From Ricordea florida (Eukaryota > Cnidaria > Anthozoa > Corallimorpharia > Ricordeidae): a stretch of 64,000 nt of DNA. Positions 1-38,831 of this stretch are shown here, piece by piece. The notes below the pieces were generated by a model that was not told the DNA's origin, searched no databases, and was given only the letters and a program-made list of their open reading frames with translations. Position numbers and translations under genes: made by a program. Where the stretch lies: positions 33,431,947-33,495,946 of the forward strand of contig OX453276.1 in assembly GCA_949710005.1 (NCBI GenBank), given 5' to 3'. Position 1 is the first letter of the stretch. Each line of letters starts with the position of its first letter.

Positions 1-1533
1 CCTTGAGCTGGATGTCTTGTTGTTGGCTGATGTCTTCGAGAACTTCAGAGATGTTTGTAGGAAGAACTACGACTTGGACCCAGCTTGGTACTAGTTGGTA
101 CACCGCAATACTACACTGCACCTGGATTGGCGTGGGATGCGGCCCTGAAAATGACCAATGTGAGTTTGGAACTTTTGAATGACCCTGACATGCTTCTCAT
201 GATTGAGAAAGGTATTCGAGGGGGTATCTCCATGATCTCCACTAGGTATGGTAAAGCCAACAATCCATACATGAAAGATTATGACCCATCATTACCAACA
301 AAGTACATCACATATCTGGATGCAAACGGTTTGTACGGAATAGCAATGAGTAAACCTTTACCAACACATGAATTTCGATGGTTGACTGAAGAAGAGCTTG
401 TATTGAAGTGGAAAGATCTACCATGTATACTAGAGGTTAATCTAATGTACCCAAAGCACCTTCACAAACTGCATAATGACTATCCATTGGCACCAGAGAG
501 AGTTACGGTAAATGGTGTGGATAAGCTAATTCCAAACCTAAGGCACAAACGAAAATACATTGTTCACCACGAGACGCTGAAACAATATTTGAGTCTCGGG
601 CTAAACGTCTACAAGATACATAGAGGCATAACATTCAAAGAGTCCGCGTGGCTGAAGCCCTATATCGACTTGAATACCGAACTAAGGACTAAAGCAACAA
701 ACGACTTCGAGAAGGATTTCTTCAAGTTGATGAACAACTCAGTCTTTGGGAAAACTATGGAGAACGTAAGGAACAGGGTGGACGTTCGTTTGGTTACTGA
801 TGAGTCAAAAGCCAAGAAGTTGGTATCGAAGCCGAATTACCACCACAGCACGATCTTTTGCGAGAATCTAGTTGCAGTACAAATGAAGAAGACAAAGTTG
901 GTGTTGGACAAACCCATTTACCTAGGCTTTTCAGTCCTGGAACTAAGCAAGACTATAATGTACGACTTCCACTATAACTACATCAAGCCCAAGTACGGTG
1001 GCAAGGCCAAGTTGTTATTTACAGACACTGATTCACTGGCATAGGAGGTGGAGACGGATGACTTCTACAAAGACATTAGCCCAGATGTGAGAGACCGGTT
1101 CGACACCAGCAACTACCCTGAAGATCATCAATCTGGCATTGAGGTGGGCGCGAACAAGAAAGTCGGGGGCATGTTCAAGGATGAAGCGGGTGGCCAACAG
1201 ATCATAGAATTAGTAGGTCTCCGGGCCAAGCTATATTCATATATGATGGATGAGGGAAAGGAGGAAAAGAAATGTAAGGGTGTGAAGAAAGCGGTCGTGA
1301 AAAAGAGCATAAGCTTCAATGACTACAAGGATTGCCTCTTCAATCAAAAATCACAGAGGAGGACGATGAATATCATCAGGAGTCACCTGCACGACGTGTA
1401 CACAGAGACTGTGAACAAGGTGGCACTATCATGCGAAGACGACAAAAGGGTGGTAAGGGAGGATGGGATACACACATATGCATATGGTCACTTTAGGACT
1501 CTAATTTCGGTAAAAAACTTAAGGATTTATTAA
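1..1533 (+). pseudogene. Type-B DNA polymerase of a Polinton/adintovirus-like element, C-terminal part, disrupted
   Basis: This is the C-terminal part of a family-B DNA polymerase of the protein-primed type carried by Polintons and adintoviruses; such enzymes copy the element's own linear DNA. Visible landmarks, in order: an Exo III-like stretch before position 91 (YxLD-type, LLADVF), motif A with DANGLYG at about 319-339, motif B with a lysine and an NSVFGKT core at about 724-756, and motif C with DTDS at 1024-1035. The gene enters from the left edge, so its N-terminal exonuclease/priming part is not visible. Two breaks are present. The frame changes at about 86-110, where a short extra segment repeats TTGGTAC, and an in-frame TAG lies at 1042-1044 just after motif C. 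The same frame then stays open to 1533. All other genes of the element read through, so loss of the polymerase looks recent. Family call is secure; pseudogene status rests on these two sites being genuine. Confidence 0.88.
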
Positions 1534-1559
1534 TACATATATAACTAGACAAAGTCGGT

Positions 1560-2390
1560 GTGGATTACGATTCAGAGGAAAATTATCACAGCCTAGTCGA
1601 TCATTTTCAGTCTATGTTCAAGAAAGCTGATGAGGAGGACGAACAGGTTTGTAAGCATGAAAGTGTGTATAGGGATAACACAGGGATTGTTCTTTGTAGT
1701 CTCTGTAAGACTGAACTAGAATCGATGGACTACTCTAAACGAGAATGGATGTACGACTTTTCAGCTAGTAGGTGTGATCTTCGCAGATCAAAACTAAAGG
1801 GAGTTCGTAATGTATTCGAGAGACATGACTTGAATGTGTCTTCTATGATGATCGATATCATAGAAGCCAAGTATCAAGATATTCTAAAGTTTAAGTGTAA
1901 AAATCGCAGTCAGATTCGTACGTCTTTGGTGGCTTCATGCTTGTTTTATACATACCAAGAATTTGGTGACTATCGTACGTTAGATTACATTAGAAATTTG
2001 TTTGGACTCAAGAAAAGAGCCATGACATGTGGTTTACAAATGTACTTGGAAGCATTCCCAGAGGTGAGAACCAACCACGTCACACCAGAGAAACTTATTC
2101 CCTGGATAATGAGAGTTACTGGGGTTGATGAATCTCATCAAAGACGTATTTTGTCCATTGTCAAGTACTTTGGAGCAACATCACAGATTCTTGAGCGCAG
2201 TACTAGCAGCATAATTGCAGCGAGTGTTGTCTTCTTTTACTTATGTATGAACCAGGAGTATAAAAATCAAATAGGTATGACAAAGAAGATCTTTGCCAGC
2301 AAAGTTAAAATTTCGGAGATCTCATTGATCAAGACAGTTCGCGAGATGGCTGACATCTCAATGTCACTTAAGTACTCTAGAAGGTGGTAA
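1560..2390 (+). CDS. TFIIB-like transcription initiation factor of the element
   Basis: Protein of about 276 residues with the layout of TFIIB. An N-terminal zinc ribbon has a CxH pair at residues 31-33 and a CxxC pair at 46-49. Two alpha-helical cyclin-like repeats follow, at roughly 85-170 and 185-270. Cellular TFIIB bridges TBP and RNA polymerase II; virus-encoded versions are known from nucleocytoplasmic large DNA viruses and would direct transcription of the element's own promoters (inference). No ATG precedes the zinc ribbon closely: the longest frame opens with GTG at 1560 and the first in-frame ATG is at 1614, which keeps the zinc ribbon. The start is therefore uncertain, or the original ATG has been lost. 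It lies 26 bases after the polymerase frame, and its 3' end overlaps the convergent integrase end at 2364-2390. Confidence 0.72.
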   Translation: MDYDSEENYHSLVDHFQSMFKKADEEDEQVCKHESVYRDNTGIVLCSLCKTELESMDYSKREWMYDFSASRCDLRRSKLKGVRNVFERHDLNVSSMMIDIIEAKYQDILKFKCKNRSQIRTSLVASCLFYTYQEFGDYRTLDYIRNLFGLKKRAMTCGLQMYLEAFPEVRTNHVTPEKLIPWIMRVTGVDESHQRRILSIVKYFGATSQILERSTSSIIAASVVFFYLCMNQEYKNQIGMTKKIFASKVKISEISLIKTVREMADISMSLKYSRRW

Positions 2391-3353
2391 TTCAGTATCA
2401 TCGGGAACAACTTGAAGTTCCTCGCGTACAAATCCTCGCTTTGATACTCCATCCAAATAATACACCACTGGCTGATCTGGTGAAATTACAGTTCTCGCTA
2501 TATCATAAACCTCAAGGCTCCATACAGGATCAGTGGCTCTTCGTTTATCACCACCTTCATCTTCACCGGGCGAATACAAATACCTAACCTCAACTCCCGG
2601 GGGTAATCTCTTCTCATTCAAGCCCACAGCTCTCTTGTATTCCATAGGTTTAACATCAATCTCTTTCAATTCCAACGCTTCATCGGGTTCTTTACCTGTG
2701 ATAAGTGTGGTTTCAGAATTCAAAGTCTTCATAATAGCGGGCAGCCTTTTCACCCAAACCCTGGACCTAACATCACTCACCATCTCCTGTGCATATTGAT
2801 GACTAAACAATTTCTCACCAATCGTTCTATTAGCCCTCTCTACAAAAGCCTGCGCCCGATGATTACCAGCTTTACTTCGCTGTATGTCTACTTGATGCTT
2901 ATTCATCAAGTGAGTGACATTACCCATGAATTCTCTACCGGGATCCACCATTAATGTCTTTGGCCACTTTAGCTTCCGAGCATAAATCCTCTCAAACGCC
3001 TTGGCCACTTCACCACTATCTTTCGAGGTCAGTGCCTCAGCATCCTTGTACCTAGAAGCGATATCAATCACAACCAGTGCATAGCGGTATGTTTTTCTTC
3101 TCACTGTATCGTGAGGAAGAAACAGCAAGTCCGCCTGATGAATTTGATTTGGCTTACCAACGACCCAATGTGGTCTAGGTATATACTTCGGGGGTGGAAG
3201 ATATATTTGCCATAATGATTGCTTCTCCAACCACTCTCTAGCAACACTTTCGGTCACTTTGGCCGCACTCGCCAACTTTGGTATGGCCGAGTATCCTTTC
3301 CAGTATCCATCAGTAGAGTAGTATAATCGACTTAAAACATCGTCACTAGACAT
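2364..3353 (-). CDS. Retroviral-type (rve) integrase of the Polinton-like element
   Basis: A 329-residue DDE integrase. The catalytic triad reads D75, D137 and E172, giving the D,D-35-E spacing typical of retroviral and Polinton integrases. The acidic residues sit in the contexts QADLLFL, MVDPGREF and FVERANR. The N-terminal 60 residues are helical, and the C-terminal region (about 270-320) has the Tyr/Leu-rich pattern ending near EELQVV that is usual for Polinton integrases. The enzyme would insert the linear element into host DNA and make short target duplications (family knowledge). It is transcribed leftwards, convergent with the TFIIB-like gene and divergent from the capsid gene at 3379, with only 25 bases between the two start codons. 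The frame is intact, with a normal ATG at 3353. Confidence 0.93.
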   Translation of the reverse strand: MSSDDVLSRLYYSTDGYWKGYSAIPKLASAAKVTESVAREWLEKQSLWQIYLPPPKYIPRPHWVVGKPNQIHQADLLFLPHDTVRRKTYRYALVVIDIASRYKDAEALTSKDSGEVAKAFERIYARKLKWPKTLMVDPGREFMGNVTHLMNKHQVDIQRSKAGNHRAQAFVERANRTIGEKLFSHQYAQEMVSDVRSRVWVKRLPAIMKTLNSETTLITGKEPDEALELKEIDVKPMEYKRAVGLNEKRLPPGVEVRYLYSPGEDEGGDKRRATDPVWSLEVYDIARTVISPDQPVVYYLDGVSKRGFVREELQVVPDDTELPPSRVLK

Positions 3354-3378
3354 TTACAACAACATTCAGTGCATTTAA
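3354..3378. promoter_or_regulatory. Very short divergent intergenic region between integrase and capsid genes
   Basis: Only 25 bases separate the start codons of the leftward integrase and the rightward capsid gene, so both promoters must lie here or inside the coding starts. The stretch is AT-rich and ends in TTTAAATG, where the start codon of the capsid gene forms part of the motif. TTTAAA or TTAAAG also precedes several other genes of the element, which makes it a candidate core promoter element. This is inference from position only. Confidence 0.35.
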
Positions 3379-4614
3379 ATGATTGAAATATCAGACATTC
3401 TTGATCCTAATCGTGTTACCAGGATGCGTAAAGGTTTGACGGCAGAGGCCTCATTAAATCGAATCACTCTAAATCCCTCATCAGCCAATCCTGGTGAGAC
3501 ATTATACATTGAAATACCAAAACTGACCGATAACCTGGTGATTGTGCCTGGCAGCGTGTACATCACTTTCGATATGAGTGTAACAGGCCACAAGAATAAC
3601 ACACTTGTCAATAACTTGGGAAGGAACCTCGTTTCACGATACAGGGTTCTATTCGGGGGTGAAATCATAGAGGACCTTAATAGGTTTGATTTATTCAAGA
3701 CTTATCACGATTTGTTTTTGTCAGAGACCGATCGCAATAACAGATTGAGACAAGGCATATCATCCGAGAATGTGAGGAAAATTAGAACCAATGCCGGTGA
3801 CAAAGTTAGCTCAAATGCAGCAGAAAATACTCTAGGTGCAGTCCATAACACCAGGTACGAAATACCATTGGACCACACAATACTGAAGGATCATGGAGTC
3901 TTCTATCCAAAAGCCTTACCACATCCACTCAAATTTGAAATAACTCTAGCTCCGGTTTCTGATGTCGTCGTTTACTCAAACGTTGAAACACCACCTGATT
4001 ACAAATTAACAAATATGGAGCTGGAGTATCATTGCATATCAAGTGACCGATTAGCCAGTCAAGCTATTGCCTCGTACCAGAATGGAAGGGTTTTCTTGTA
4101 TGAGAAGATACTTCTTCACAAAACGTTTCCAATCTCTGAGAACACTGATGGTGTGATTAATGAGCATATTAACGTGCCTAGGAAATCCATGACTGGCATA
4201 CTATGTATTTTCACAGCCCCATATGCAGCAGGTGTTAGGGACTCTGAGAGTTTTGTAAACCCAAAGATCACATCGGTTAGGATTGACAAAGATGGAGTAC
4301 CAAACAAACTTTATTCGAAAGGCATGATACCAACTGATTTATGGCAGGCTATAATTAAACGAGTTGGTATCGATGATTCCATCAAGGAGTCTGATTTCTA
4401 TACGAACAAGTTTGCTTTGTGGATCGATCTGAGGAGTTACCCCGACAATGATGTTCATGGGAACGGTTTGGAGCTAACTAGTACTCGGGATGGCATAAGA
4501 CTCGAGATTAACAGGGAGAAGAGAGGAGGCAGGGTTCTTACCTGCTACATGTTCGTGGTTGCTGACGCCGCTATGGAGATTATGAACTCAAATTTAAAAA
4601 AGATAGTGTACTAG
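3379..4614 (+). CDS. Putative double-jelly-roll major capsid protein
   Basis: A 411-residue protein rich in predicted beta strands with no membrane segment. I judge it the best major capsid candidate in the element. It lies directly upstream of the packaging ATPase, as capsid genes often do in these elements, and has a size compatible with small double-jelly-roll proteins. It shows two beta-rich halves (about 30-200 and 215-405). The first half ends near a PHPLKFEITL strand and the second has FALWIDLRSYP followed by a strand-rich C-terminus. Capsid proteins of this fold build the facets of icosahedral virions. No single diagnostic motif proves the fold; a structure prediction showing two stacked jelly rolls would. 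The gene is intact from ATG to stop, and 13 bases separate it from the next start codon, suggesting co-expression. Confidence 0.55.
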   Translation: MIEISDILDPNRVTRMRKGLTAEASLNRITLNPSSANPGETLYIEIPKLTDNLVIVPGSVYITFDMSVTGHKNNTLVNNLGRNLVSRYRVLFGGEIIEDLNRFDLFKTYHDLFLSETDRNNRLRQGISSENVRKIRTNAGDKVSSNAAENTLGAVHNTRYEIPLDHTILKDHGVFYPKALPHPLKFEITLAPVSDVVVYSNVETPPDYKLTNMELEYHCISSDRLASQAIASYQNGRVFLYEKILLHKTFPISENTDGVINEHINVPRKSMTGILCIFTAPYAAGVRDSESFVNPKITSVRIDKDGVPNKLYSKGMIPTDLWQAIIKRVGIDDSIKESDFYTNKFALWIDLRSYPDNDVHGNGLELTSTRDGIRLEINREKRGGRVLTCYMFVVADAAMEIMNSNLKKIVY

Positions 4615-4627
4615 ATATAATCGAAGG

Positions 4628-5257
4628 ATGAATGAGTTAGTGGATAAAATACCATTCAACTGTATCATTACGGGACCTACGAATTGTGGAAAGACTCAAT
4701 ACCTGGTGGACAAGCTTCGAGGACACTTTAGGGGCGTGTTCGACTATATTGTCTTGATTTGCCCCACTTATAGCCATAACAAGACTTACAGAGGCTTTGC
4801 AAAGGGGGACAAGAGATTTTGGGTACTCTCACCAGACTCTAGTGATGAGGACGAAATTGACTATTTGCTAACGCTTTGCTCAACGTTATTCTCGGGTGAG
4901 AACACACTCATAATACTGGACGATTGCGCTGTTTCGAAAGACTTGAAGAATCGGTCAAACAAATTCATCAATCTGGCGTTTTCCGGGAGGCACCTTGGCA
5001 TATCTGTGTGGGTTCTCACCCAACAGCTCACATCGATCTCGAAACCATTCCGAGAGAATGTCGCGTGTGTGGTATCGTTTTACAACCCGTCTGAAACCGC
5101 GATGAAAATGTTATTTGAGGAATATGGTGGTGCTTTGGATGTTAATAAACGCAAACGGTACAAGAAGCTACTCGAGAGTGAAAAATACGCCAGACTTTGC
5201 TTTTCACTGCGCCACCCGTTTGAAAAATACTTAGAGATACCCGCGTCTGGGGCATAA
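4628..5257 (+). CDS. A32/FtsK-HerA-type genome-packaging ATPase
   Basis: A 209-residue P-loop ATPase. Walker A is GPTNCGKT at residues 16-23 and Walker B is LIILDD at 94-99. A downstream VLTQQLTSI segment is typical of the HerA/A32 packaging branch, in which the glutamines act near the active site. Such enzymes pump the DNA genome into preformed capsids. The length agrees with the compact ATPases of Polintons and virophages. The gene follows the capsid candidate by 13 bases and ends 2 bases before the start of the next gene, so the three are probably one expression unit. The frame is intact with an ATG start. Confidence 0.9.
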   Translation: MNELVDKIPFNCIITGPTNCGKTQYLVDKLRGHFRGVFDYIVLICPTYSHNKTYRGFAKGDKRFWVLSPDSSDEDEIDYLLTLCSTLFSGENTLIILDDCAVSKDLKNRSNKFINLAFSGRHLGISVWVLTQQLTSISKPFRENVACVVSFYNPSETAMKMLFEEYGGALDVNKRKRYKKLLESEKYARLCFSLRHPFEKYLEIPASGA

Positions 5258-5259
5258 AC

Positions 5260-5859
5260 ATGGCTAACCCTGAAGATATATTGAACGGTGAAGCATCAGT
5301 TGGTGCAACACCATCACCAATCATTGATTTGGAGTCAAAGAGGGAATCTCTTTCAATCTTGGCGTGTCTGGGTTCAACGAAAGAATACACGGGTGTGGTT
5401 ATGGACCTCTCTGACACAACCAAACTATCGGATACGGATGTGGAGAAGTATTACAAAAGGTACCAAGTCGTGTCGGGCAAGAAGATTGCCGATGGCTTGG
5501 CGGACTCTTCTTTTCAATTGATAGCTAAGGCTGTAGATCGGGGTTTGAGAAATTACGGGAATATAGATGATAAAGACGCTCTTGTGAGAGATTGTAAGAA
5601 CGATGAATTGATAATGAAGGAGATCTCAAATATATCCGGGTCACTTGTACTCAAAGGTGGAAGACTCACGGCATTACTTTCGGCATTTATTCAATTTGCA
5701 AAGCACTTCAAGTTAAGAGAGTATGAATCCAACAGTGCTCCAACACAACTTGAGCAAGACCTAAGCACCACTCCAACACAACTTGAGCAAGACCTGAGCA
5801 CCACTCCAACACAACTTGAGCAAGACCTGAGCACCACTCCAACACAACTTGAGGACTAA
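5260..5859 (+). CDS. Unknown element protein with C-terminal 11-residue tandem repeats
   Basis: A 199-residue hydrophilic protein that I do not recognise. Residues 1-155 are mixed alpha/beta without membrane segments or obvious catalytic motifs. Residues 160-199 are three full copies plus a partial copy of an 11-residue unit, TPTQLEQDLST, encoded by nearly identical 33-bp repeats at 5737-5856. The repeats are acidic and glutamine-rich, would be extended or weakly helical, and probably arose by recent slippage. The start codon lies 3 bases after the ATPase stop, so the two are likely co-transcribed. A virion-associated or scaffold role is possible from the position next to capsid and ATPase genes, but nothing in the sequence proves it. 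Confidence 0.65.
   Translation: MANPEDILNGEASVGATPSPIIDLESKRESLSILACLGSTKEYTGVVMDLSDTTKLSDTDVEKYYKRYQVVSGKKIADGLADSSFQLIAKAVDRGLRNYGNIDDKDALVRDCKNDELIMKEISNISGSLVLKGGRLTALLSAFIQFAKHFKLREYESNSAPTQLEQDLSTTPTQLEQDLSTTPTQLEQDLSTTPTQLED
5737..5856 (+). repeat. 33-bp coding tandem repeat
   Basis: Three full units and one partial unit of 33 bp at the 3' end of the preceding gene. The units are almost identical (one C/T-type difference), which implies recent expansion, and each adds 11 residues in frame. Confidence 0.9.
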
Positions 5860-5919
5860 AGTGGATTCTATGAAAAGTGTCTTGAAGATTGGTTGTACCA
5901 TAAGCAAAAGCACAACAAA

Positions 5920-6477
5920 ATGCAACAACAAAACGAATTTGGGTTTCACGTATTTACCTTATATGGTGAGAATGACTCTGACTTTGAGAAGCTCTTCGAG
6001 AGAGTAAGGCCAGAGATTGTTAATGCCTTCGAGTTAGTCAACCCTACTTTCACAAGAGTTGAAGTTAATTTCAAGCGAGACCCGGATGAAGAACAATGTC
6101 AATACATAGTTGACCATTATGATGATGAGACTGACTCTGCAGATACTCTGATCACACGTACTGTGAAAGTTTTGAGATCGAGATTGAGATACAATTTCAG
6201 GGATGGACTTCAACCACGTTTTCATTATAGGTACAAGGACATCTACGATAGACGCTTTGATGAATCTATTGACCCCGAGGAGAGATTCAGAGCAATGGAC
6301 AATGGGGATTGGAATGGGAAAGAGGGTTTGGAAGATACTGGTCTGTATGGCCCTTTGGTCGAGATTTTCGTAGAAGATACGGAGTCTGAAGTTTCATACA
6401 TCACAATCAAGATGTATACAAGCACTACCATAAATCGGACTTCTACAGACGTCTGTGTGATGAACTTATGGCTATAG
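5920..6477 (+). CDS. Unknown element protein, possibly frameshifted near its 3' end
   Basis: A 185-residue protein from the first ATG at 5920; the frame is open from 5893 but without an upstream ATG. It is acidic, without membrane segments, and I do not recognise it. Its C-terminal 15-20 residues (after about 6415) are Thr/Ser-rich and look non-native. In the next frame, a stretch from about 6400 to 6557 encodes a well-formed helical tail with LCDELMAIAWHPDRVLDWC followed by an acidic segment. That Trp-His-Pro and Trp-Cys pattern is typical of C-termini of small proteins in large DNA viruses. Either a single-base indel near 6410-6420 displaced the true C-terminus, or a second small gene overlaps. 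A hairpin at 6578-6610 follows the longer reading, which favours 6557 as the original end. Confidence 0.55.
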   Translation: MQQQNEFGFHVFTLYGENDSDFEKLFERVRPEIVNAFELVNPTFTRVEVNFKRDPDEEQCQYIVDHYDDETDSADTLITRTVKVLRSRLRYNFRDGLQPRFHYRYKDIYDRRFDESIDPEERFRAMDNGDWNGKEGLEDTGLYGPLVEIFVEDTESEVSYITIKMYTSTTINRTSTDVCVMNLWL

Positions 6478-6577
6478 CGTGGCACCCCGATCGTGTATTG
6501 GACTGGTGTGTTGACCACGAGGAAAAGGAAGAGATGAAAGAGCGATGGGGTATGTAAGAACCACTTGAAACCATTGT

Positions 6578-6610
6578 AAGCCTCTTAGTAGAAGACCTAC
6601 TAAGAGGCTT
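6578..6610 (+). terminator. Perfect 14-bp intergenic hairpin
   Basis: Two 14-base arms (6578-6591 and 6597-6610) are exact reverse complements around the 5-base loop AAGAC. It lies between the 3' end of the 5920 gene and the next start codon and is followed at once by TTAAAG. A role in transcript 3'-end formation is inferred from its place, which recurs after other genes of the element. Confidence 0.75.
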
Positions 6611-6620
6611 AAAGATAGGT

Positions 6621-7550
6621 ATGTACTATGTCATAACCGAAAGGTACTTGTTGAACATGACTGATCCAATCTTCATTTCACTTGACTCTGATTTTGACTG
6701 GAACACCATCGTTGTTTCTGAACCCAAGAGGAACTCTTTCACCAAAGGCAGAAGTAAAGTACCAAACCAATGGGTTAGTTCATATGTTTATGTAGAAGGT
6801 CCAAACGGTGTGAAGCGAGCGATATTCATTGAATTATCCAAGCAATTCTTTTCGGGTATATCAGGGGTGTGGCAATTTGGAACCGACAAAGACAGTCGCA
6901 GACTTGAGAATTTGGAGGGGTTCCAAATTTCATACCCAATGACATCGATTGATACCATGGATTGCCCAACAACCGAAGAGAACAAGACTCGAGAAGCACT
7001 TGATAATGTAGTGAAGATCACATTGAACTCACTCAAAAAGTTTTGCTACAAACCAAAATCAGAGAGGTCAGTACCACCCGCAACCTTCAATGCATACACG
7101 ACTGCCAAGAGTGAAAATGATTGGTCTTTTGCTGTGAAGCCAATATACGATTACATAAACACCACAAACCAACAAACGGGTGAGAAGACAAAGGACAAAA
7201 ACAGTCCACAGCGTGCCTACCTCAAGTTCCTGACATGGGGTAAGGGTGATAAAATCCAATCCAGAACTTGTGTATACGGTCCAGATGATGAAATCGTTAA
7301 CCCACTTGAATACCTGTGGCAACCCGACAAGTATGTAAGCGGTTTTGGTCATCCTGTCATCCATTGGGATGGTATATTCTGGGGATCCCAAGGGCAGACC
7401 AGCTATGGCGCTTCAGCTCGTCTTCGTGTTTCTGAGATGAATTTCACTCCAAGTGATTACAACAACAAGACTCGTTTTCGTATGTTACCCTCAAACAAGG
7501 CACAAGAATCAGAATCAGGATCAGAAGATGAGATTGTGATAGAACACTGA
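6621..7550 (+). CDS. Unknown element protein, about 300 residues, possible single-stranded DNA-binding type
   Basis: A 309-residue soluble protein from ATG 6621; an alternative ATG at 6657 removes twelve residues and gives a more natural start (MTDPIFISL). It is beta-rich in its first 90 residues and again near 240-285, where it reads GHPVIHWDGIFWGSQGQT and then a predicted strand. The C-terminus is an acidic Ser/Glu tail of about 18 residues. A beta-rich core with an acidic tail suits virus single-stranded DNA-binding proteins, but I see no decisive motif, so that role is only a suggestion. It stands between two intergenic hairpins and so probably has its own transcript. Intact frame. Confidence 0.6.
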   Translation: MYYVITERYLLNMTDPIFISLDSDFDWNTIVVSEPKRNSFTKGRSKVPNQWVSSYVYVEGPNGVKRAIFIELSKQFFSGISGVWQFGTDKDSRRLENLEGFQISYPMTSIDTMDCPTTEENKTREALDNVVKITLNSLKKFCYKPKSERSVPPATFNAYTTAKSENDWSFAVKPIYDYINTTNQQTGEKTKDKNSPQRAYLKFLTWGKGDKIQSRTCVYGPDDEIVNPLEYLWQPDKYVSGFGHPVIHWDGIFWGSQGQTSYGASARLRVSEMNFTPSDYNNKTRFRMLPSNKAQESESGSEDEIVIEH

Positions 7551-7566
7551 ATAATTAAGACTTACT

Positions 7567-7593
7567 TCTCCTAATAGACACCCTATTAGGAGA
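7567..7593 (+). terminator. Intergenic hairpin, 11-bp stem
   Basis: Arms 7567-7577 and 7583-7593 pair perfectly (core CTCCTAATAG / CTATTAGGAG) around ACACC. It begins 16 bases after the stop of the preceding gene. A TTAAAG motif and the next start codon follow. It recurs almost unchanged 300 bases downstream. Confidence 0.75.
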
Positions 7594-7629
7594 GTTAAAG
7601 CTAAGTGATAATAGGGATACAAACATGGC
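7568..7629 (+). promoter_or_regulatory. Duplicated hairpin-plus-leader module, copy 1
   Basis: About 62 bases, from the hairpin through GTTAAAGC to the start codon of the next gene, are repeated with about 85-90 percent identity at 7868-7929. Both copies end in AAACATGGC. Two successive small genes therefore share one regulatory unit, combining a 3' signal for the gene before and a leader for the gene after. Confidence 0.65.
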
Positions 7630-7849
7630 CAACACAGGAGTTATTGATAGAGCGACTGTGAATGAATATTGTGAAGAGTACTGTAGAAATAATATAGATG
7701 AACAGTGTCGGGAAATAATACAAGAACGTAGAGATGAGGAAAGAATAGAGTTTGAGGAGTTCGTTATTAAAGCATCTTCATATTTGAAAGGTGCGATGGT
7801 CGGAATTGGATTATGTTGGTTGTATAACAAACGTCGTTGGTTTTGGTAG
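7625..7849 (+). CDS. Small membrane protein of the element
   Basis: A 74-residue protein with a very acidic and basic helical N-terminal part (residues 1-48, rich in Glu and Arg) and one hydrophobic segment near 53-68 (GAMVGIGLCWLY), followed by a short basic and aromatic tail. Single-pass tail-anchored topology is likely. Not recognised by name. It starts the block of small membrane proteins at 7625-10247 and carries the duplicated hairpin-leader module upstream. The initiator ATG is set by the shared AAACATGGC leader. Confidence 0.6.
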   Translation: MANTGVIDRATVNEYCEEYCRNNIDEQCREIIQERRDEERIEFEEFVIKASSYLKGAMVGIGLCWLYNKRRWFW

Positions 7850-7867
7850 ATGTTGGTTCAAAAAAAT

Positions 7868-7929
7868 CCCCTAATAGAAACCCTATTAGGAGATTTAAAG
7901 CTTAGTGATAACAGGGATGCAAACATGGC
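7868..7929 (+). promoter_or_regulatory. Duplicated hairpin-plus-leader module, copy 2
   Basis: Second copy of the module at 7568-7629. Its hairpin is slightly weaker: 8 perfect pairs (7870-7877 with 7883-7890) followed by a mismatch. It decides the start of the next gene at 7925, because the matching leader ends in AAACATGGC there rather than at the upstream in-frame ATG at 7850. Confidence 0.65.
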
Positions 7930-8200
7930 TGAGCAAACTGTTGAGCAAATCACAAGTGAACCCGCTGTCAAGGATAGAGTGAAGGATCCTAAGAAGGTGG
8001 AGGCCGGGAAGAAACTGGCCGACTACCACAAGAAGGCTAAGGAGGCATTGAAGGAAAAAGAGCAGCGGGATGCATTGATAGATAATCAGAAAGAAAAGGA
8101 GCAGCAGCAGCAGCAGGATGCATTGGTAAAAGAGGATGATGAAGGATCTTCATGGATGTTAATGCCTGGATACCCAGTCTATCCTTCGAGAATGTGTTAA
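7925..8200 (+). CDS. Small charged coiled-coil protein
   Basis: A 91-residue, highly charged, lysine- and glutamate-rich protein with a long predicted helix (residues 12-70) containing a polyglutamine run coded by CAG repeats at about 8101-8117. The frame is open from ATG 7850, but the duplicated leader points to ATG 7925. Its last 16 residues overlap in another frame the start of the next small gene, which begins with a membrane segment. A charged rod followed by a membrane anchor would make sense as one protein, so a frameshift (old mutation or programmed) at about 8150-8200 is possible. Function unknown. Confidence 0.55.
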   Translation: MAEQTVEQITSEPAVKDRVKDPKKVEAGKKLADYHKKAKEALKEKEQRDALIDNQKEKEQQQQQDALVKEDDEGSSWMLMPGYPVYPSRMC

Positions 8201-8373
8201 TAATCGGGTCCATAATAGGGATAACTGCTTATTCCTTATACACAGGATACAAAGACAGAATAGCCGACTTACGCGTACTTTCTATAACCTTCGGACCACC
8301 TCCTGTCAAGAACATGAATGAGGTCAGAAGCGCCCCAAACAGAGAAAATAGCTTAAATGATGAGTTGATGTAA
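8152..8373 (+). CDS. Small membrane protein overlapping the previous gene
   Basis: A 73-residue frame with one clear membrane segment at residues 13-31 (ENVLIIGSIIGITAYSLY) and a hydrophilic tail. It overlaps the preceding reading frame by 49 bases. It may be a separate small gene, or the displaced C-terminal part of the coiled-coil protein before it. No named family. Confidence 0.5.
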   Translation: MDVNAWIPSLSFENVLIIGSIIGITAYSLYTGYKDRIADLRVLSITFGPPPVKNMNEVRSAPNRENSLNDELM

Positions 8374-8381
8374 TACACAAA

Positions 8382-8606
8382 ATGTCAGAAAATAAGCTTG
8401 TAAAGACTGTTACAGATTCTGCAGTTCTCGTGGGGCTCGCTGCTGCTGTGGGTTATGTGGGTAAGAAGGCCTTGAAAGAATCGTTCATTGGCGATCCATC
8501 GTCCAATATCATGAATTATGGCAAATGGGTCGTTGTTTTGTCAGCGAGTATGTACCTCAAAACTTATTTAGAAGATCAAAAGATACTACCAAAAAGCTTT
8601 GAGTAA
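8382..8606 (+). CDS. Small membrane protein with two hydrophobic segments
   Basis: A 74-residue protein with two hydrophobic helices, at about 11-29 (VLVGLAAAVGYVG) and 46-60 (WVVVLSASMYL), joined by a short polar loop that contains a Gly-Asp-Pro-Ser turn. It starts 8 bases after the previous stop and its stop overlaps the next start in TAATG, so it belongs to a tight cluster. Probably a membrane component of the particle or of the infected cell; role unknown. Confidence 0.6.
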   Translation: MSENKLVKTVTDSAVLVGLAAAVGYVGKKALKESFIGDPSSNIMNYGKWVVVLSASMYLKTYLEDQKILPKSFE

Positions 8607-8803
8607 TGAGTACAGTGGAATTTGATCATACAAGATTCAAAGTGGCGTTGGATAGTCATATGGAGGACGAACCCATTTTGAGGGACTTCATAACTAAAGA
8701 TGATAATGGGTCCGTAATATCCTTAGACGAGAAAGGATTCGTTATGGCTGTACTCGATCATTTGAAGAACACTCCCAAGTTAGAACACTTCACGATTGAG
8801 TGA
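8606..8803 (+). CDS. Small acidic protein of the element
   Basis: A 65-residue acidic soluble protein with no membrane segment. Its start codon overlaps the stop of the preceding gene by one base (TAATG), a translational coupling pattern seen in compact genomes. Unrecognised. Its short length and intact frame between two well-supported genes are the main support. Confidence 0.5.
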   Translation: MSTVEFDHTRFKVALDSHMEDEPILRDFITKDDNGSVISLDEKGFVMAVLDHLKNTPKLEHFTIE

Positions 8804-8836
8804 AATGAATTAAGAAATCCTACAATAGATTGATAA

Positions 8837-9244
8837 ATGGCGACTATAGGGATTGTGTTTGTAGGTGCATTCGTCAATGCAGGTGCCCTCGGTCTTATGA
8901 GTTATATAACACATGTCCTCACTGGATCATCACCCGATGAACTCGAAAGGGAAAGGAAAAGGCATGATAAAGCAATGGAGAAGTACCAAAAAGATTACGC
9001 TGCGTTCGAAAAGAGGCGCTTGGCATATATTGACTTTATGAATAAGAGGAAGAGTGATGCTGACCAGGCATCTGAGAACATATCGAAGACGGATGAAGCG
9101 ATGAAATTGTACAATCAAATAGGCAATCCTCCTAAATTCTCTGACTATTACCGACCGAATGAAGACCAAAGAATGGCTCAGATGATCTATGTCGTAGTTG
9201 GGATGTTAATCCTGGTATATATATATAGCAAGTGGGTGCGATAA
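8837..9244 (+). CDS. Two-pass membrane protein with a central coiled coil
   Basis: A 135-residue protein: hydrophobic N-terminal segment (about 3-25), a long basic and acidic helix (35-85, ERERKRHDKAMEKYQKDY type), a conserved-looking FSDYYRPNEDQRMAQ motif near 103-117, and a second hydrophobic segment at 117-133. I recognise the overall type as one repeatedly found next to the other proteins of this block in cnidarian elements of this kind (from memory, not searched). It could span the membrane twice with the helix on one side, as expected for a virion membrane or spike-base protein. Intact frame. Confidence 0.62.
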   Translation: MATIGIVFVGAFVNAGALGLMSYITHVLTGSSPDELERERKRHDKAMEKYQKDYAAFEKRRLAYIDFMNKRKSDADQASENISKTDEAMKLYNQIGNPPKFSDYYRPNEDQRMAQMIYVVVGMLILVYIYSKWVR

Positions 9245-9260
9245 ATTAACTTAGAAGTTC

Positions 9261-9282
9261 CCATATTCGACATCAAATATGG
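9261..9282 (+). promoter_or_regulatory. Hairpin spanning the start codon of the next gene
   Basis: CCATATT (9261-9267) pairs exactly with AATATGG (9276-9282) across an 8-base loop. The 3' arm includes the ATG at 9279, so the structure could mark the 3' end of the previous gene or limit initiation at this start. Confidence 0.4.
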
Positions 9283-10247
9283 CAACTGCTTATCCTGAAG
9301 AAGAAGAAGAAGAAAATGATCCTTTCGGGTTGGGGGAAGAAAACAAACAAGAAGATCCTGATGATTTTGAAAATACCCCACTACTTGGTAGGCAGACCAC
9401 ACCAGACAAAGTCCTAGAAACATCCACGACTAAGGGTTCTAGACGTAAATCAGGGTATATTCAATTACCACGTGAAGATATAGAGATGGAGGTTATGGAA
9501 GGAAACAAAGATGAAGTCTGGACTAAGATTGTAGATAAATTCCCAAATGCCAAACCTAAGTTTCTTTTCAAATACGATGAATGGGGTAAAATCGTTGTTA
9601 AAATCACTGGCAGAGATCCAGACAGAAATGTATGGCATCAATTATTCGATGCGTATGGTGATGTGAACAAAGGATTACCCAAAACAATTACAAAAGAGCT
9701 AGGTCAAAGCGCGGAAGAAATTGTGGAAGCCAGTGATGGTGAGATAACTAAGAAAAAAGGGTTCGTTAGTAAATTGAAAGAGACGGTAAGATTCCATCGA
9801 GAAAAGGCATTGAAAACCCCGGAAGAAGTAAGTCAAATAGAGACTATCGAGGAACAAATTGTTGAACAAGAGCAAGAGATAGCTAACTTGGAGGGGGAGA
9901 ATGAGCAAATCCAGGAGCGAATGTCATTGCGAGATAGGGTGAAAGCGATCTTCAAGAAATATGGGTTCACGGTATTTGCCGTTGTGAGCGCCGTTGGTGT
10001 GGTAATTGGCGTTATCGTGTCTAATCTTTCCAAAGGCCTATCCAAATTGGGCAAAGGTGTGGGGGACGGGCTGAAGACCATCGGTAAGAAACTTGGTGAG
10101 ATATTGCCCGGTATGGTGGGGGCGATCGTGAGTTTCCTGTTCAAGACCGCTGGGGAGGTCATTTCATTCCTAGGGAAGAACGCTTGGCTATTGATCCTCG
10201 CTGTTGTAGTGTACTTTGTAGAGGAATTAAAGAAGAGGCGTCGTTGA
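9279..10247 (+). CDS. Membrane-anchored element protein with glycine-rich amphipathic C-terminal half
   Basis: A 322-residue protein in three parts. Residues 1-75 are a very acidic, probably disordered tail with a Glu run. Residues 75-215 are a soluble mixed region ending in a coiled coil rich in Gln and Glu (about 190-215). Residues 225-317 are hydrophobic and glycine-rich: a first segment FAVVSAVGVVIGVIV, repeated short GLxKLGKGVG motifs, then two more hydrophobic segments before a basic KKRRR end. The glycine and alanine pattern resembles membrane-active or membrane-fusion segments. I recognise this C-terminal type as common in cnidarian Polinton-like elements but know of no assigned function. 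Tightly followed by the penton candidate (6 bases). Confidence 0.62.
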   Translation: MATAYPEEEEEENDPFGLGEENKQEDPDDFENTPLLGRQTTPDKVLETSTTKGSRRKSGYIQLPREDIEMEVMEGNKDEVWTKIVDKFPNAKPKFLFKYDEWGKIVVKITGRDPDRNVWHQLFDAYGDVNKGLPKTITKELGQSAEEIVEASDGEITKKKGFVSKLKETVRFHREKALKTPEEVSQIETIEEQIVEQEQEIANLEGENEQIQERMSLRDRVKAIFKKYGFTVFAVVSAVGVVIGVIVSNLSKGLSKLGKGVGDGLKTIGKKLGEILPGMVGAIVSFLFKTAGEVISFLGKNAWLLILAVVVYFVEELKKRRR

Positions 10248-10253
10248 ATGTAA

Positions 10254-10886
10254 ATGTTGAGCGTTACCATGTACGAGTCTGAAACCAGGGTGTACTTGGA
10301 TCCTCCCCTGGACAAAGTTCGAGAGATACAACTCCTGGGTTGTAATATACCCAAACGATTGGTGAATTTCAAGGATCGCCAGGGCATACTCAATGAGGAA
10401 AATCGACCCCTCATAATAATCCAACCCGGTACATACTCTCTGCGTGGTATACACGCGATATTTCTCAATGATACGGATAAGGCTAAGCTATCGATCATTG
10501 AGACTGATACTGTTGACTATCTATACTCCAATAAGAACTCCAACATCAAACTTACGAGAGGACTGCAAGTTGCTCTAGGTTTACCTGAAGTCATAACTCC
10601 TGGTAAGATATACCCAGTAAATCTCCAAATCAAGGAGCCCCTGAAACTTATGTGCAGTCTAGTGAATAACCAGTCATCCTATATGAATAATGCTCGATAT
10701 ACAGGCCCTGTGAAGATCTCACCCTCACAACTCCTTGCCAACATACCATCACAGGATTATCCAGTCATTCCCGTTCATAAATCTAAAACACCCATAAATC
10801 ACTTCGATCTGAGCATCCTCGACAGTGAATGGAACAAATTGAATCTGAATGGGTCTCCAATCACCTTCAGTTTGAGATTCAGATAA
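10254..10886 (+). CDS. Putative penton-like minor capsid protein
   Basis: A 210-residue beta-rich protein without membrane segments. The C-terminal pattern (about 180-210), NHFDLSILDSEWNKLNLNG followed by a strand, resembles the end of the single jelly-roll penton or minor capsid proteins of Polintons, virophages and adintoviruses, where an Asn/Asp-rich turn precedes the last strand. Pentons occupy the capsid five-fold vertices. Position just after the membrane proteins and size both fit. No motif is diagnostic, so a fold prediction is the deciding check. The ATG at 10254 follows an upstream ATG-TAA minicistron at 10248-10253. Confidence 0.5.
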   Translation: MLSVTMYESETRVYLDPPLDKVREIQLLGCNIPKRLVNFKDRQGILNEENRPLIIIQPGTYSLRGIHAIFLNDTDKAKLSIIETDTVDYLYSNKNSNIKLTRGLQVALGLPEVITPGKIYPVNLQIKEPLKLMCSLVNNQSSYMNNARYTGPVKISPSQLLANIPSQDYPVIPVHKSKTPINHFDLSILDSEWNKLNLNGSPITFSLRFR

Positions 10887-10918
10887 CATTTAAAAGTACG
10901 TGAGATCCGTAACTAAAC

Positions 10919-11551
10919 ATGGGTGAGTACAAAGGAATCTATCCCAACTTGCCTGCGACGGCGCCTCCCCCTGATGGCGCTACTTTCAGATTACAACAAT
11001 GTTGTGACATTTTGAATAAGCTGAAGGCTGAATTGAATCACTACGAGATGGTACTCAAAAAGTACAATCGGTCCAAAGGCACGCTCATAAACGCAAGCTC
11101 GACCTGTGGTATCCTATCTTGTATTTTGGCGGCTGGTGGATTGGGTACATCTCTGAGTGGTGTGGGAATTGTGGTAGCTATACCCTTGGGAGTTACGAGT
11201 GGAATACTTGTTGGCGCATCCATAGCGTGTGAACAAATCTCCAAGAGCCTGGCAAAGAAAGCAGTCAAGCACCAAAGTACAGTTACGCTGGCCAAGGCCA
11301 AAATAAACACAATCGAGGACTTGGTGTCCAAGGCACTTCGCGATAATAAGATCTCTGACGAGGAGTTCTCCATGATAATCGAGGAGCTCAAGAAGTTTGA
11401 AAAGCTCAAGGCTGATATCCGACTCAAGGCTCAAAAAAATTCAGTGAAGGAGAGCGATCCTGTGGCACTGAGACAGAGTGTACGAGAAGAAATTCTCAAA
11501 GAACTCAAAAGAAGGGTCATAAACATAACTTATGAAAAGGTATCTTATTGA
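10919..11551 (+). CDS. Helical element protein with a hydrophobic glycine-rich core
   Basis: A 210-residue, almost wholly helical protein. The N-terminus is proline-rich, then a helix to about 55, then a glycine- and alanine-rich hydrophobic stretch (about 58-100, ILAAGGLGTSLSGVGIVVAIPLG), then charged helices with the sequence NKISDEEFSMIIEELKKFE. This layout recurs in cnidarian elements alongside the two neighbours on each side (recalled, not searched). The hydrophobic core could insert into a membrane. Function unknown. A TTTAAAAG sequence lies about 25 bases upstream of the ATG. Confidence 0.6.
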   Translation: MGEYKGIYPNLPATAPPPDGATFRLQQCCDILNKLKAELNHYEMVLKKYNRSKGTLINASSTCGILSCILAAGGLGTSLSGVGIVVAIPLGVTSGILVGASIACEQISKSLAKKAVKHQSTVTLAKAKINTIEDLVSKALRDNKISDEEFSMIIEELKKFEKLKADIRLKAQKNSVKESDPVALRQSVREEILKELKRRVINITYEKVSY

Positions 11552-11592
11552 GTTAAACACTAGAACCCTTCTACCCAAACACTGGATAGAAG

Positions 11593-13137
11593 ATGGGCTT
11601 ACTCAATGACTTTAGGAATAGGTATCCAAAGGCTGACCGTGACCAATTCGTATTTGTGACTGATCAATATGGAGGATACATTAGGTGGAAAGTTAATGGG
11701 ACAACAATTATGTCTTATGACGACCCCACTGGTAAGACATGGACTGAAGACCTATCACCCCGTTTGAAAAGACTACTCTGGTTAGATTTAGGATTGAATG
11801 ATAATGAATTGAGTTCATTCCCAAAGAGTTTGACCATGACCAATCGCTCGTACCCAATACCAGCCATTGACTTTGATGACTTCACAAGTGATACCACAAC
11901 CATGCTGACATCATTGGATATATACGTGTCCAATACGAAAAAGTTCACCGCTAAGATGCGTAACGTGTTCACATCACAAGTTGTCACGTTCAAATCTGGG
12001 AAGCAAGGCCGAAAGTGGTTGAACGCACCTGATATGAATTATTGGCCTCAACAGCTTAATTTTGCAGTATGGTGTGCAACCTCTGGATGTGGTATCAGCC
12101 CCTTTGAAAGTTTGAACTACCCCAAAGTGGTGGCTGGTTTCATAAAGTTTCATACATACTTCACCATAAGGCGAATACTGTATGAATTGAGTGTGCCTTT
12201 GCCTGATGAACAACCATTTTCCATAGCTAACAACCCTTACAGTAAGGTTGCTTACCAAAGATTATGCGCTGAATTCGGGATCGCCAATGATTCTGATTTC
12301 AGATGGAAAGGCGGGCGAAACCATGGTCTTGGTGATATATTCCTTGATTATGGAGCTGGTTACCATGGACGAGGTGGTGGATTTCAAAATGTTCATGTGA
12401 TTCGAAACTATGATGAAGATGCAAACCAATGGCCTGGTGATGGTGGTAAATTCTCAGATGATGGTGGTAAGAAGGAAAAAGGTAACTTCATCTCATTCAT
12501 TCGCAATGATGACTTTGCTGGGTACAAGTATGCTTGGTTCATTCCAACGAGTGGTTATGGGCTCACCAAGGCTGGGCTGGGTAGACTGAATCGATCTGCT
12601 GAGGCCTTCGTTTACTGTGTGTTGGGATCGCAAGTTAATACACGAAACTCGATTGTGGGCACGGGTGGCGGGGCAATTGAGACCCAACAAGAGTTCTTGG
12701 CTCTATTTGAAAGTAGTGTGATTGAGAACGATATATCAAGTTCAGTACAAAGGTACCAACTCGCAACTCAGGAAGCGAAGTTAAGATTGGATCTGGCAAT
12801 TGCACCTGGAGTTTGGCTAATGCCCAGTAATATGATCATAAATACGGAGAGTGTGGTTGGGTACAACAACAACCTAATGAAGGCTACAGGTGACATGAAG
12901 TTTGGAATCAACTCAAATGTAAACCTGGAGACCAAGACTGTAGGGATAAGCCATAACTTGGGCTCTTCGAAAGTTAAGCTACCACATGCAGCTGCTAGAA
13001 CTGAAGCTGTACAGGTGAAAACACCAATGATGGATGTTAAACCTGAAATCAAAGAGCCTGAAACCACACAACATGAAAATAATATGATTGCATTGATAAT
13101 CGTAGCTGGTGGACTGGCTTGGGCTTTGTTCCGTTGA
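11593..13137 (+). CDS. Large conserved element protein with C-terminal membrane anchor
   Basis: A 514-residue protein, the largest intact gene of the element. It is soluble for most of its length and ends in one hydrophobic segment (about 496-513, MIALIIVAGGLAWALF), so it is probably a type II or tail-anchored protein. Notable motifs: AVWCATSGCGIS near 158-169, a FHTYFTIRRILYEL helix, a Gly/His/Arg-rich loop near 252-275, and a YNNNLMKATGD segment. I recognise the family as one that recurs in cnidarian Polinton-like elements, with no function known to me. Size, single membrane anchor and virion-gene context suggest a surface or structural protein. Intact frame. Confidence 0.65.
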   Translation: MGLLNDFRNRYPKADRDQFVFVTDQYGGYIRWKVNGTTIMSYDDPTGKTWTEDLSPRLKRLLWLDLGLNDNELSSFPKSLTMTNRSYPIPAIDFDDFTSDTTTMLTSLDIYVSNTKKFTAKMRNVFTSQVVTFKSGKQGRKWLNAPDMNYWPQQLNFAVWCATSGCGISPFESLNYPKVVAGFIKFHTYFTIRRILYELSVPLPDEQPFSIANNPYSKVAYQRLCAEFGIANDSDFRWKGGRNHGLGDIFLDYGAGYHGRGGGFQNVHVIRNYDEDANQWPGDGGKFSDDGGKKEKGNFISFIRNDDFAGYKYAWFIPTSGYGLTKAGLGRLNRSAEAFVYCVLGSQVNTRNSIVGTGGGAIETQQEFLALFESSVIENDISSSVQRYQLATQEAKLRLDLAIAPGVWLMPSNMIINTESVVGYNNNLMKATGDMKFGINSNVNLETKTVGISHNLGSSKVKLPHAAARTEAVQVKTPMMDVKPEIKEPETTQHENNMIALIIVAGGLAWALFR

Positions 13138-13153
13138 TGGACTCGATATAATT

Positions 13154-13178
13154 TTTGTAACGTGGTTCGCGTTACAAA
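13154..13178. terminator. Hairpin between two convergent genes
   Basis: TTTGTAACG (13154-13162) and CGTTACAAA (13170-13178) pair perfectly over 9 bp around the loop TGGTTCG. It lies between the 3' ends of the 11593-13137 gene and the leftward zinc-knuckle gene, where a bidirectional 3'-end signal is expected. Confidence 0.7.
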
Positions 13179-13194
13179 GATGCACACTATATTA

Positions 13195-13617
13195 CTACAA
13201 CTTACTAAGATCGCGGCAATCTATACAACGATCTTTACGTTTGTAATGAACGCATATGCCCTTTCCCCCACACTCTTTACATCTGTACCTAGTTCTACCA
13301 TGAGAACATACTTGGGAACCCTTACAATCTTTGCAAGAGTACTTTACTCTACCATGAGTACATATACCCTTACCACCACACTCTTTGCAATATGCTTTCT
13401 GTCTTAGATGAGGGCATATTTGTGATCCCATACAATCCTTACACTGAACCTTACGCCTGCCATGGTTACATTTTCCTCCACCACTAACACTAGGTACCTC
13501 TTCAGGCATCCCCAGCGCCTCTAGTAACTCGTCTCGACGCATCTTGTAATATTTGACTATCTTACGCTCCTTGGCAATGGCGCGGAGCTCTTTGACAGTT
13601 TGATTTTGATTTGGCAT
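13195..13617 (-). CDS. SAP/Rho-N-like domain plus five zinc-knuckle repeats
   Basis: A 140-residue basic protein. Residues 7-36 form a helix-turn-helix of SAP or Rho-N type (TVKELRAIAKER ... RRDELLEAL), which commonly binds nucleic acid. From C50 on, five consecutive units with the pattern CxH, six residues, CxxC start at C50, C68, C86, C104 and C122, an exact period of 18 residues. Each unit can hold one zinc ion. Such repeats occur in proteins of large DNA viruses. A DNA- or RNA-binding role is likely. It is the last gene at the right end and is transcribed towards the element's interior, convergent with the preceding gene. ATG at 13617. Confidence 0.72.
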   Translation of the reverse strand: MPNQNQTVKELRAIAKERKIVKYYKMRRDELLEALGMPEEVPSVSGGGKCNHGRRKVQCKDCMGSQICPHLRQKAYCKECGGKGICTHGRVKYSCKDCKGSQVCSHGRTRYRCKECGGKGICVHYKRKDRCIDCRDLSKL

Positions 13618-13650
13618 GATGAGTGTTTAAATGTACAGTAACATTCCTTT

Positions 13651-13710
13651 AAGACGATAGGATCGATTTGGGATCCTGCACGAGTGCAGGATTTTCGTGT
13701 GTTTCGTCTT
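13651..13710. repeat. Nested palindrome near the right end of the element
   Basis: An outer pair AAGACGA (13651-13657) and TCGTCTT (13704-13710) encloses a perfect 9-bp hairpin ATCCTGCAC / GTGCAGGAT (13673-13681 and 13684-13692) with the two-base loop GA. It lies upstream of the zinc-knuckle gene start and just outside the last gene, where the terminal inverted repeat should begin. It may be part of that terminus or a promoter structure. Confidence 0.6.
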
Positions 13711-15218
13711 GAAGTGCTGTCCCAGAACTGTCACTTTGCTACTACTTTCTTGCATTTTTAGGATACATTTGCATATCGCAATCGATAACACAATACGGTA
13801 GAATGTGATTGTGAAAAGTTCTGATAAACATATCCAAAATAAGACGATTAATTATACTACCAACAACAAACGGAATAAGAATGACGTATCTATGGACAGA
13901 GTTTGTTTGCAAGAAACGCGTGATAAGTCGAAGTGTCTGGCGTGAAAAATAGATGTATCCATGGGCAGCGTTTGTTTACAATAAACGCTAAATTGAACTT
14001 AACAATTTACTGGCATCGCCAAAGATTAGGAAACGTTAAATGCCATATGTTTGATTAAGTCAAGCCAACAAAACATACTTGATTAACCTGGATTTTATTA
14101 GTCCGGGCGAATCGACTCTTGGTCCGGGCGAATCGACTCTTGGTCCGGGCGAATCGACTTTTTCTTCGGGCGAATCGACTCGGAAATCGGGCGAAACGTC
14201 TTCGGGCGAAAGGGTCATCGGGCGAAACGACCTGATACCGGACAAGACTACCTTTTGTTACACAACACCACCCAGCACTTCCAAATTTGAAGAATGTACT
14301 CATGGGGAAATTGCATTTAATTCAAAGCCAACCAATTCTTAGAGAAATATTTGAGGAACCTCTCCTATTATCATGTCGCAAAGGAAAATCTCTAAAACAT
14401 ATCCTGGTCAGAGCTTAACTCTGAAGACACACGATCATTTGGGAACAGCAGGAGTCGCGCAGGCCCGTCAACACGTTTTTACTTTCTGTGACAAAACCTC
14501 GCCTGACCCCATACCCACTGTTGTCCCAAACCTCGTATTTATACTTATTTCGTTATTTATAGTTCTGTGTTTAAGGATTTGGGGCGATTTTCTGTTGCAA
14601 ATTTCATCTGCATGTGGCTGCGCAAGCTCTCTTCATAACATGTTTTTGTGGCTTTATCTTCGTCACGATAGTTTCTTGACTTGTACACCGATTAGAACTC
14701 ACGTATCTCATTACTTATTGTATTTATATTTCATTTATTGACTTGTATTTGTAGTTCTGTCTTTTAGGATTTGGGCTCATTTTCCGCGGTTCCATCTTTT
14801 AGGACATGGGGTCATTTTCCGCGGTTCCGTCTTTAGGATTTGGGGTTATTTTCCGTGGCTCCGACATTTCGCCGTTCCGGCTTTTAGGATCTTCCCCTTC
14901 CGCGTTAGGTTTCCGATTTCAGCTTGTGGTTAGTGTGCATAGTATTTGCGATCACCTACGAGCTACAAATTTCTACAGCAAGTTTTATTGCTACGGTGCA
15001 TGCAGACCAAAGTAAGTTCCTATTTGTTTAATTTATCTTACTGTTTCTTCGCATTAAGCATTTATTTTACGCTTTAAGCTATTTACATAGTCGTTTCTTT
15101 AGTTTGTTTCTAGCTAGTGTTAAGTTCTTGTAGCAATGCATTATGCTTAGGTTAGTTCTCGTCCTATTTCGTTTTTAGTTCGAACCACTAAGTCACAATG
15201 TTACATCGCAAAGTAAAA
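13711..15218. other. Gene-free region right of the element, with minisatellites
   Basis: No convincing gene. It should contain the right terminal repeat of the Polinton-like element, but that cannot be delimited without the left end. At about 14101-14230 there is a short minisatellite, and from about 14567 to 14900 a decayed tandem repeat of about 40 bp (GGTTCCGTCTTTAGGATTTG type). The frame at 14373-14741 has no coding character. Confidence 0.5.
14101..14230. repeat. Minisatellite with GTCCGGGCGAATCGACT core
   Basis: Three nearly perfect 20-21-bp units (14101-14161) are followed by increasingly diverged units that keep the TCGGGCGAAWCG core up to about 14230. The gradient from perfect to degenerate copies suggests expansion from one side. 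Confidence 0.8.

Positions 15219-24075: not shown

Positions 24076-38831
<14,756 letters not shown>

Follow-up and report, generated by a model that had tools for sequence, protein, structure and literature searches.

A TFIIB of giant-virus type in a Polinton/Maverick lineage integrated in the genome of Ricordea florida

Several groups of eukaryotic DNA viruses are considered to descend from Polintons (Mavericks). When such an element carries a gene for the transcription factor TFIIB, the question arises whether that gene is a maintained part of the lineage, and what it would do there. The locus that raises this question is a stretch of 64,000 nucleotides from the corallimorpharian Ricordea florida (assembly GCA_949710005.1, contig OX453276.1, forward strand, positions 33,431,947 to 33,495,946), here called the window. 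A preliminary description of it, made from the letters alone, had proposed a nearly intact Polinton/adintovirus-like element with its own TFIIB at 1-13711. The features that carry the argument are the following (coordinates, strand, feature and basis).

1-13746, unstranded: rightmost 13.7 kb of a Polinton/Maverick element of 16.2 kb (delimited by its terminal repeats and target duplication; the left end lies in L069, the stretch to the left of the window)
13470-13746, unstranded: 277-bp inverted repeat at the right terminus, with 4 mismatches against its left counterpart (comparison of L069 with the window)
1614-2390, plus: TFIIB of giant-virus type (fold and iterated profile; the frame opens before 1560, with no ATG at the relatives' start codon)
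2364-3353, minus: integrase (Pfam rve, E 1.8e-7; PHROG transposase, E 2.6e-8)
3379-4614, plus: major capsid protein, double jelly roll (PF16903, E 1.6e-5)
4628-5257, plus: packaging ATPase, A32 type (Pox_A32, E 1e-12)

The ends of the element were located by comparing L069, which lies immediately left of the window, with the window's right side. The element has a total length of 16,219 bp; it begins 2,473 bp ahead of window base 1 and runs to 13746. The preliminary description was right to see a Polinton in the left part of the window, but the element is not wholly inside it. Like a Polinton/Maverick, it has terminal inverted repeats (the left one at L069:3028-3304) and a 6-bp target duplication, TTCTTG, on both sides (right copy, 13747-13752). 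The termini, AGTAGTAG...CTACTACT, are of the (AGT)2...(ACT)2 type; vertebrate Mavericks have been recognised by, among other criteria, ends of this or the (AG)3 type together with 6-bp duplications (PMC8097293). The terminal repeats diverge by 1.4%, which suggests a fairly recent insertion of this copy.

The frames of the element were listed and then scanned against Pfam and PHROG; 16 frames entered the Pfam scan, and some small frames were outside it. The integrase, the packaging ATPase and the capsid gene at 3379 were found where they had been predicted. With rve the integrase scored 31.8 bits against a cut-off of 32.6, i.e., 0.8 bit short, and PHROG transposase families matched it as well; we count it as the integrase expected of a Polinton. 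The ATPase and the capsid protein scored above the Pfam cut-offs, and both are of the kinds by which Polintons are recognised. A PDB search by capsid sequence gave no match. In its predicted fold the capsid protein comes closer to the capsids of giant viruses than to the adenovirus hexon, and an Adintovirus sp. protein came only 15th among its viral fold matches; a capsid fold had been rightly proposed, and the label "adintovirus-like" is not borne out. With its identity and ends established, the element is a Polinton/Maverick virus, most likely of an animal, in integrated form.

The preliminary description had also called the protein at 1560 TFIIB-like, and by fold and iterated profile it is a real TFIIB. 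The single sequence gave no Pfam match and only chance PDB matches; the assignment is settled because of the iterated alignment, together with the match of the predicted structure. The protein has an N-terminal zinc ribbon with four Cys/His ligands, aligned to TFIIB in the family profile, and two cyclin repeats, as judged from the predicted structure and its fold matches.

To place this TFIIB, its relatives were compared. Among predicted viral structures the best match was the TFIIB of Marseillevirus LCMAC102 (38% identity, E 3.4e-17), which comes from a single Marseille-like contig of 395,459 nt (PMC6401483); the next, the TFIIB of Marseillevirus marseillevirus, had 23% identity. Most relatives are unnamed and metagenomic, with 30-49% identity among those covering at least three quarters of the protein. 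The identity to human TFIIB was 12% in a structural alignment, and a host origin was rejected on the contrast of this value with those for the giant-virus TFIIB and the unnamed relatives. The protein is thus related to the TFIIBs of large DNA viruses, as kin to giant-virus TFIIB within a largely unnamed metagenomic family.

A quick tree of 110 relatives and a careful tree of 48, both with midpoint roots, united the Polinton TFIIB rows in a single, fully supported group. The careful tree nests them, through a ladder of mostly supported forks, in a group of 23 rows (99/95); in the quick tree the order within the group is less resolved. The longest source contig in the group of 23 is 40.5 kb; among the 12 rows of the group next to it are some from contigs of 418 and 534 kb. 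These sizes hint at sources among both small and giant viruses, and the trees would fit one passage of the gene between the two, in a direction that midpoint roots do not set. Two TFIIB/capsid protein pairs among the database relatives have source contigs of equal length (15,382 and 15,823). No relatives with gene context were found in scans of viral contigs, genome contigs and phage records. As a separate observation, a related capsid protein with 61% identity represents cluster P0082, which comprises 4,980 sequences and whose longest contig has 1.2 Mb; elements related through this cluster would be very numerous somewhere.

The host's own genome (537.8 Mb, 48 contigs) was searched for further copies, the preliminary description having advised a search for full-length ones with terminal repeats. 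At least 147 TFIIB matches were scored from 276 candidates, 139 of them without an internal stop, and at least 101 capsid matches from 6140 first-look candidates, 94 of them stop-free; both totals are lower bounds. Apart from the window copy itself, all TFIIB matches were 79-97% identical to it. From the 100 other capsid copies we read 60 (ranks 2-21 and 40 lower-ranked ones) with 1.9 kb upstream, a sample that, being drawn from capsid matches, is biased to intact elements. TFIIB was present in 57 of these 60 stretches and open over at least 90% in 50. For one of the other three, a TFIIB match is listed ∼8.5 kb upstream in the same orientation, a distance that an insertion would explain; for two, no match is listed. 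The zinc ligands were retained in all 51 rows that covered them (50 copies and the window; 7 rows were uncovered). The short start word was detected in 48 copies; 44 of them have an ATG where relatives start translation, and in another three it is displaced by a few codons.

Codon counting gave a dN/dS of 0.55 for TFIIB (1585 pairs), 0.12 for the integrase (1828 pairs) and 0.18 for the capsid gene (1830 pairs), the pairs not being independent and carrying the bias of the sample. A neutral frame would be expected to have ∼2.6 stops per copy (median pairwise dS 0.12; 5.6% of point changes create a stop). Given this dN/dS and the few stops against that expectation, the comparison of copies shows that TFIIB is kept by purifying selection, weak and less strict than on the integrase or the capsid gene. 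Across the copies read, TFIIB thus appears as a standing gene of this Polinton lineage.

What would the lineage use it for? We consider it probable that this TFIIB starts transcription of the element's own genes. Made while the element is active, it would bind the TATA-binding protein (TBP) and A/T-rich start sites, such as the TTTAAA words upstream of start codons, and would bring an RNA polymerase to the element's genes. Host RNA polymerase II (Pol II) would be the simplest partner, because no RNA polymerase gene was recognised in the element. All five TTTAAA words in the window part of the element, a word picked after looking, lie at most 45 nt upstream of a start codon. One of them is at the divergent integrase and capsid genes:

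3354-3378, unstranded: 25-bp gap between these genes, with part of a TTTAAA site at 3374-3379 (frame list)

ATTTAA, the 6-mer shared most widely upstream of starts, occurs in 6 of 17 upstream windows, four of which were set from a start misplaced by one base; 3 of 1000 random sets scored at least as high. The same idea has been put forward for an algal giant virus that encodes TFIIB and TBP itself (PMC12085832), and a virophage is reported to raise the expression of the TFIIB of its giant host (PMC11464507). It is reasonable to infer, with the preliminary description, that the factor controls the element's own transcription.

Several points weigh against this. Where relatives start translation, the window copy has no ATG; the first one in its frame comes 18 codons downstream, at 1614, so that this copy would yield a shorter protein, if any. 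The B-reader/linker EWR...DPSR of the relatives is partly missing in the Polinton proteins, so their function may differ, and the zinc ribbon is modelled poorly in the predicted structure. The dN/dS of TFIIB is far above those of the integrase and the capsid gene. TTTAAA, besides the way it was chosen, is rarer in the element than in its flanks, and neither TBP nor an RNA polymerase was recognised in the element.

The rival that survives best takes TFIIB together with hairpins behind genes as signs of giant-virus-style expression: the RNA polymerase of a co-infecting marseillevirus-like virus would transcribe the element, much as with a virophage, and the messages would end in hairpins. The kinship of the TFIIB to marseillevirus TFIIB speaks for it, and so does the placement of four hairpins.

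6577-6611, unstranded: hairpin with a stem of 15 bp, 20 nt past the stop of a small frame that was recognised only once the hairpin was known (hairpin scan)
7567-7593, unstranded: hairpin with a stem of 11 bp, 17 nt past the stop of 6621-7550 (hairpin scan)
7870-7890, unstranded: hairpin with a stem of 8 bp, 21 nt past the stop of 7625-7849; duplicates the 7567 hairpin (hairpin scan)
13154-13178, unstranded: hairpin with a stem of 9 bp, between two converging genes whose stops are each 17 nt away (hairpin scan)

With a stem of at least 8, nine hairpins were counted in the element. Four of the nine start 17-21 nt after a stop codon, which was equalled in 2 of 20,000 random placements, in a test for which the frame before the 6577 hairpin was added post hoc and three of the stops used are uncertain or come from broken genes. 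The 7567 and 7870 hairpins belong to one duplicated stretch, which weakens the statistic further. Their core was present in eight of ten other copies read there; in one copy, with a 16-bp stem, both bases of an outer pair are changed. The 13154 hairpin recurs in a longer form in three of eight right-end stretches, some of which do not reach that place. In Marseilleviridae palindromes follow stop codons and messages are polyadenylated in such hairpins, polyadenylation within the hairpin having been shown for one transcript (PMC5413956); Mimiviridae mRNAs likewise end in hairpins (PMC4402537). By analogy, the hairpins after stops are possible mRNA-end signals. The density of hairpins in the element (9 in 13.7 kb, 0.66 per kb), however, is little above that in the rest of the window (21 in 50.3 kb, 0.42 per kb). 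Also against co-infection, the word AAATATTT, which we take to be the marseillevirus promoter word, is absent from the element, and we know of no giant virus of this host. On balance we regard this account as rather unlikely.

A broader version would credit the lineage with a miniature giant-virus-style kit (TFIIB, matching start signals and mRNA-ending hairpins), expressed in the manner of giant viruses, possibly in the factory of a marseillevirus-like virus. This combination is doubtful; if it held, the element would be a virophage-like partner settled in an animal genome.

Two further accounts concern the TFIIB itself. As a decoy, the shortened factor would tie up host TBP or Pol II and damp host transcription or defence. 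The partly missing linker and the relaxed selection would suit this, but the zinc ligands and both cyclin repeats are retained, as an active factor would need, and we think a decoy very unlikely. Least credible is the view of TFIIB as functionless, either a dead passenger or a gene captured from the host, since the broken polymerase of this copy and the start codon missing from it stand against only 8 of 147 matches with any stop where ∼2.6 per copy would be expected, and 12% identity to human TFIIB against 38% to giant-virus TFIIB. Transcription of the element's own genes by its TFIIB, most simply with host Pol II, is the reading that we retain.

The remaining genes of the element are as follows.

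151-1044, plus: DNA polymerase fragment, broken gene (PHROG phage DNA polymerase family, E 3.6e-4)
1171-1533, plus: further 3' polymerase fragment, by position only (open frame; no family match above cut-off)
5260-9244, plus: open frames without assigned function at 5260-5859, 5920-6477, 6621-7550, 7625-7849, 7925-8200, 8606-8803 and 8837-9244 (frame list, Pfam scans)
9279-10247, plus: unassigned protein (no Pfam match above cut-off)
10254-10886, plus: penton candidate of the preliminary description (no Pfam or PHROG match)
10919-11551, plus: unassigned protein (no Pfam match above cut-off)
11593-13137, plus: unassigned 514-residue protein (no Pfam match)
13195-13617, minus: Rho_N (SAP-like) protein with Cys/His repeats, first part in the terminal repeat (PF07498, E 5.8e-7; same start at L069:3148)

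The polymerase gene is disrupted by frame changes and a stop: its left part consists of two overlapping frames in L069, and its right part of two pieces in the window. The larger of these, 151-1044, has motifs that we take to be those of a DNA polymerase. The polymerase had been named among the identifying genes; the PHROG match of 151-1041 speaks for it, but that fragment gave no Pfam polymerase model and no PDB polymerase match, PolB having been searched in pieces. All genes but the polymerase had been called open, and it had been suggested on that ground that the virion module may have been expressed until recently. The listed frames are open and the polymerase is broken, but the full length of the unassigned frames can be judged only with relatives. 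An adenovirus-type protease had no Pfam match among the 16 scanned frames, and neither an OTU domain nor a chromodomain had one, PolB again being searched only in pieces.

Beside the polymerase start, the frame at L069:4122-5498 matches Endonuclease_7 (PF02945, E 2.6e-5, above cut-off). The protein of 5260-5859 ends in a repeated 11-residue tail, coded by a 33-bp tandem repeat of 3.5 copies at 5738-5853. Both terminal repeats encode the same Rho_N protein start (13195-13617, minus; L069:3148-4167, plus), and the leftmost, polymerase-side frame and the rightmost gene of the element therefore open with this one common domain. Outside the element, the flanks hold a second inverted pair, 13953-14232 and L069:1653-1933, 92% identical over 284 columns; on the right there is a tandem repeat of CGGGCGAATCGACTC type. 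Farther along the window, four near-identical long frames on the minus strand have the look of membrane proteins (40959-42653, 48832-50496, 55241-56905 and 61224-62762), one of them split in three by stops. By eye, 17163-18929 resembles exons of a vitamin-K-dependent carboxylase and 31605-32650 a LINE reverse transcriptase; the frames outside the element have, by the same judgement, the appearance of animal genes.

The transcription of Polintons is hardly known, and a selected TFIIB of giant-virus type in a Polinton family that numbers well over 100 copies within one genome offers a concrete handle on it. It suggests that the lineage controls its own start sites, and that small and giant viruses are linked by a common transcription gene. 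The hairpins after stops make giant-virus-like mRNA processing directly testable.

Compared with known systems, the element resembles Polintons/Mavericks in its integrase, packaging ATPase, VP54-like capsid, putative polymerase remnant, (AGT)2-type inverted repeats and 6-bp duplication. Two other Polinton traits, a protein-primed PolB and a single-jelly-roll penton, would correspond to the broken polymerase gene and to the candidate at 10254-10886. It differs in carrying a TFIIB, and in that no adenovirus-type protease was found in 16 frames, whereas 74% of Polintons have one (PMC4028283). With adintoviruses and meldviruses it shares Polinton-type genes in animals, and some meldviruses pair these with giant-virus-like virion proteins (PMC11071296). 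Adintoviruses are marked by a hexon and a PolB recognisable by BLASTp, an OTU domain in PolB and a chromodomain in the integrase (same source); the capsid here, in contrast, lies closer to the giant-virus type. Polintons and their capsids were already known, as were TFIIBs of giant viruses. In the literature searched (open-licence full texts, partly covered) we found no report of a TFIIB in a Polinton, and within that literature its presence there is new. The protein is like the giant-virus TFIIBs in fold and, for LCMAC102, in sequence, but its gene lies in an element of 16 kb in which no RNA polymerase was recognised, and part of its linker is missing. Virophages such as mavirus and Sputnik depend on the transcription factors of their helper; unlike them, this lineage encodes a TFIIB of its own.

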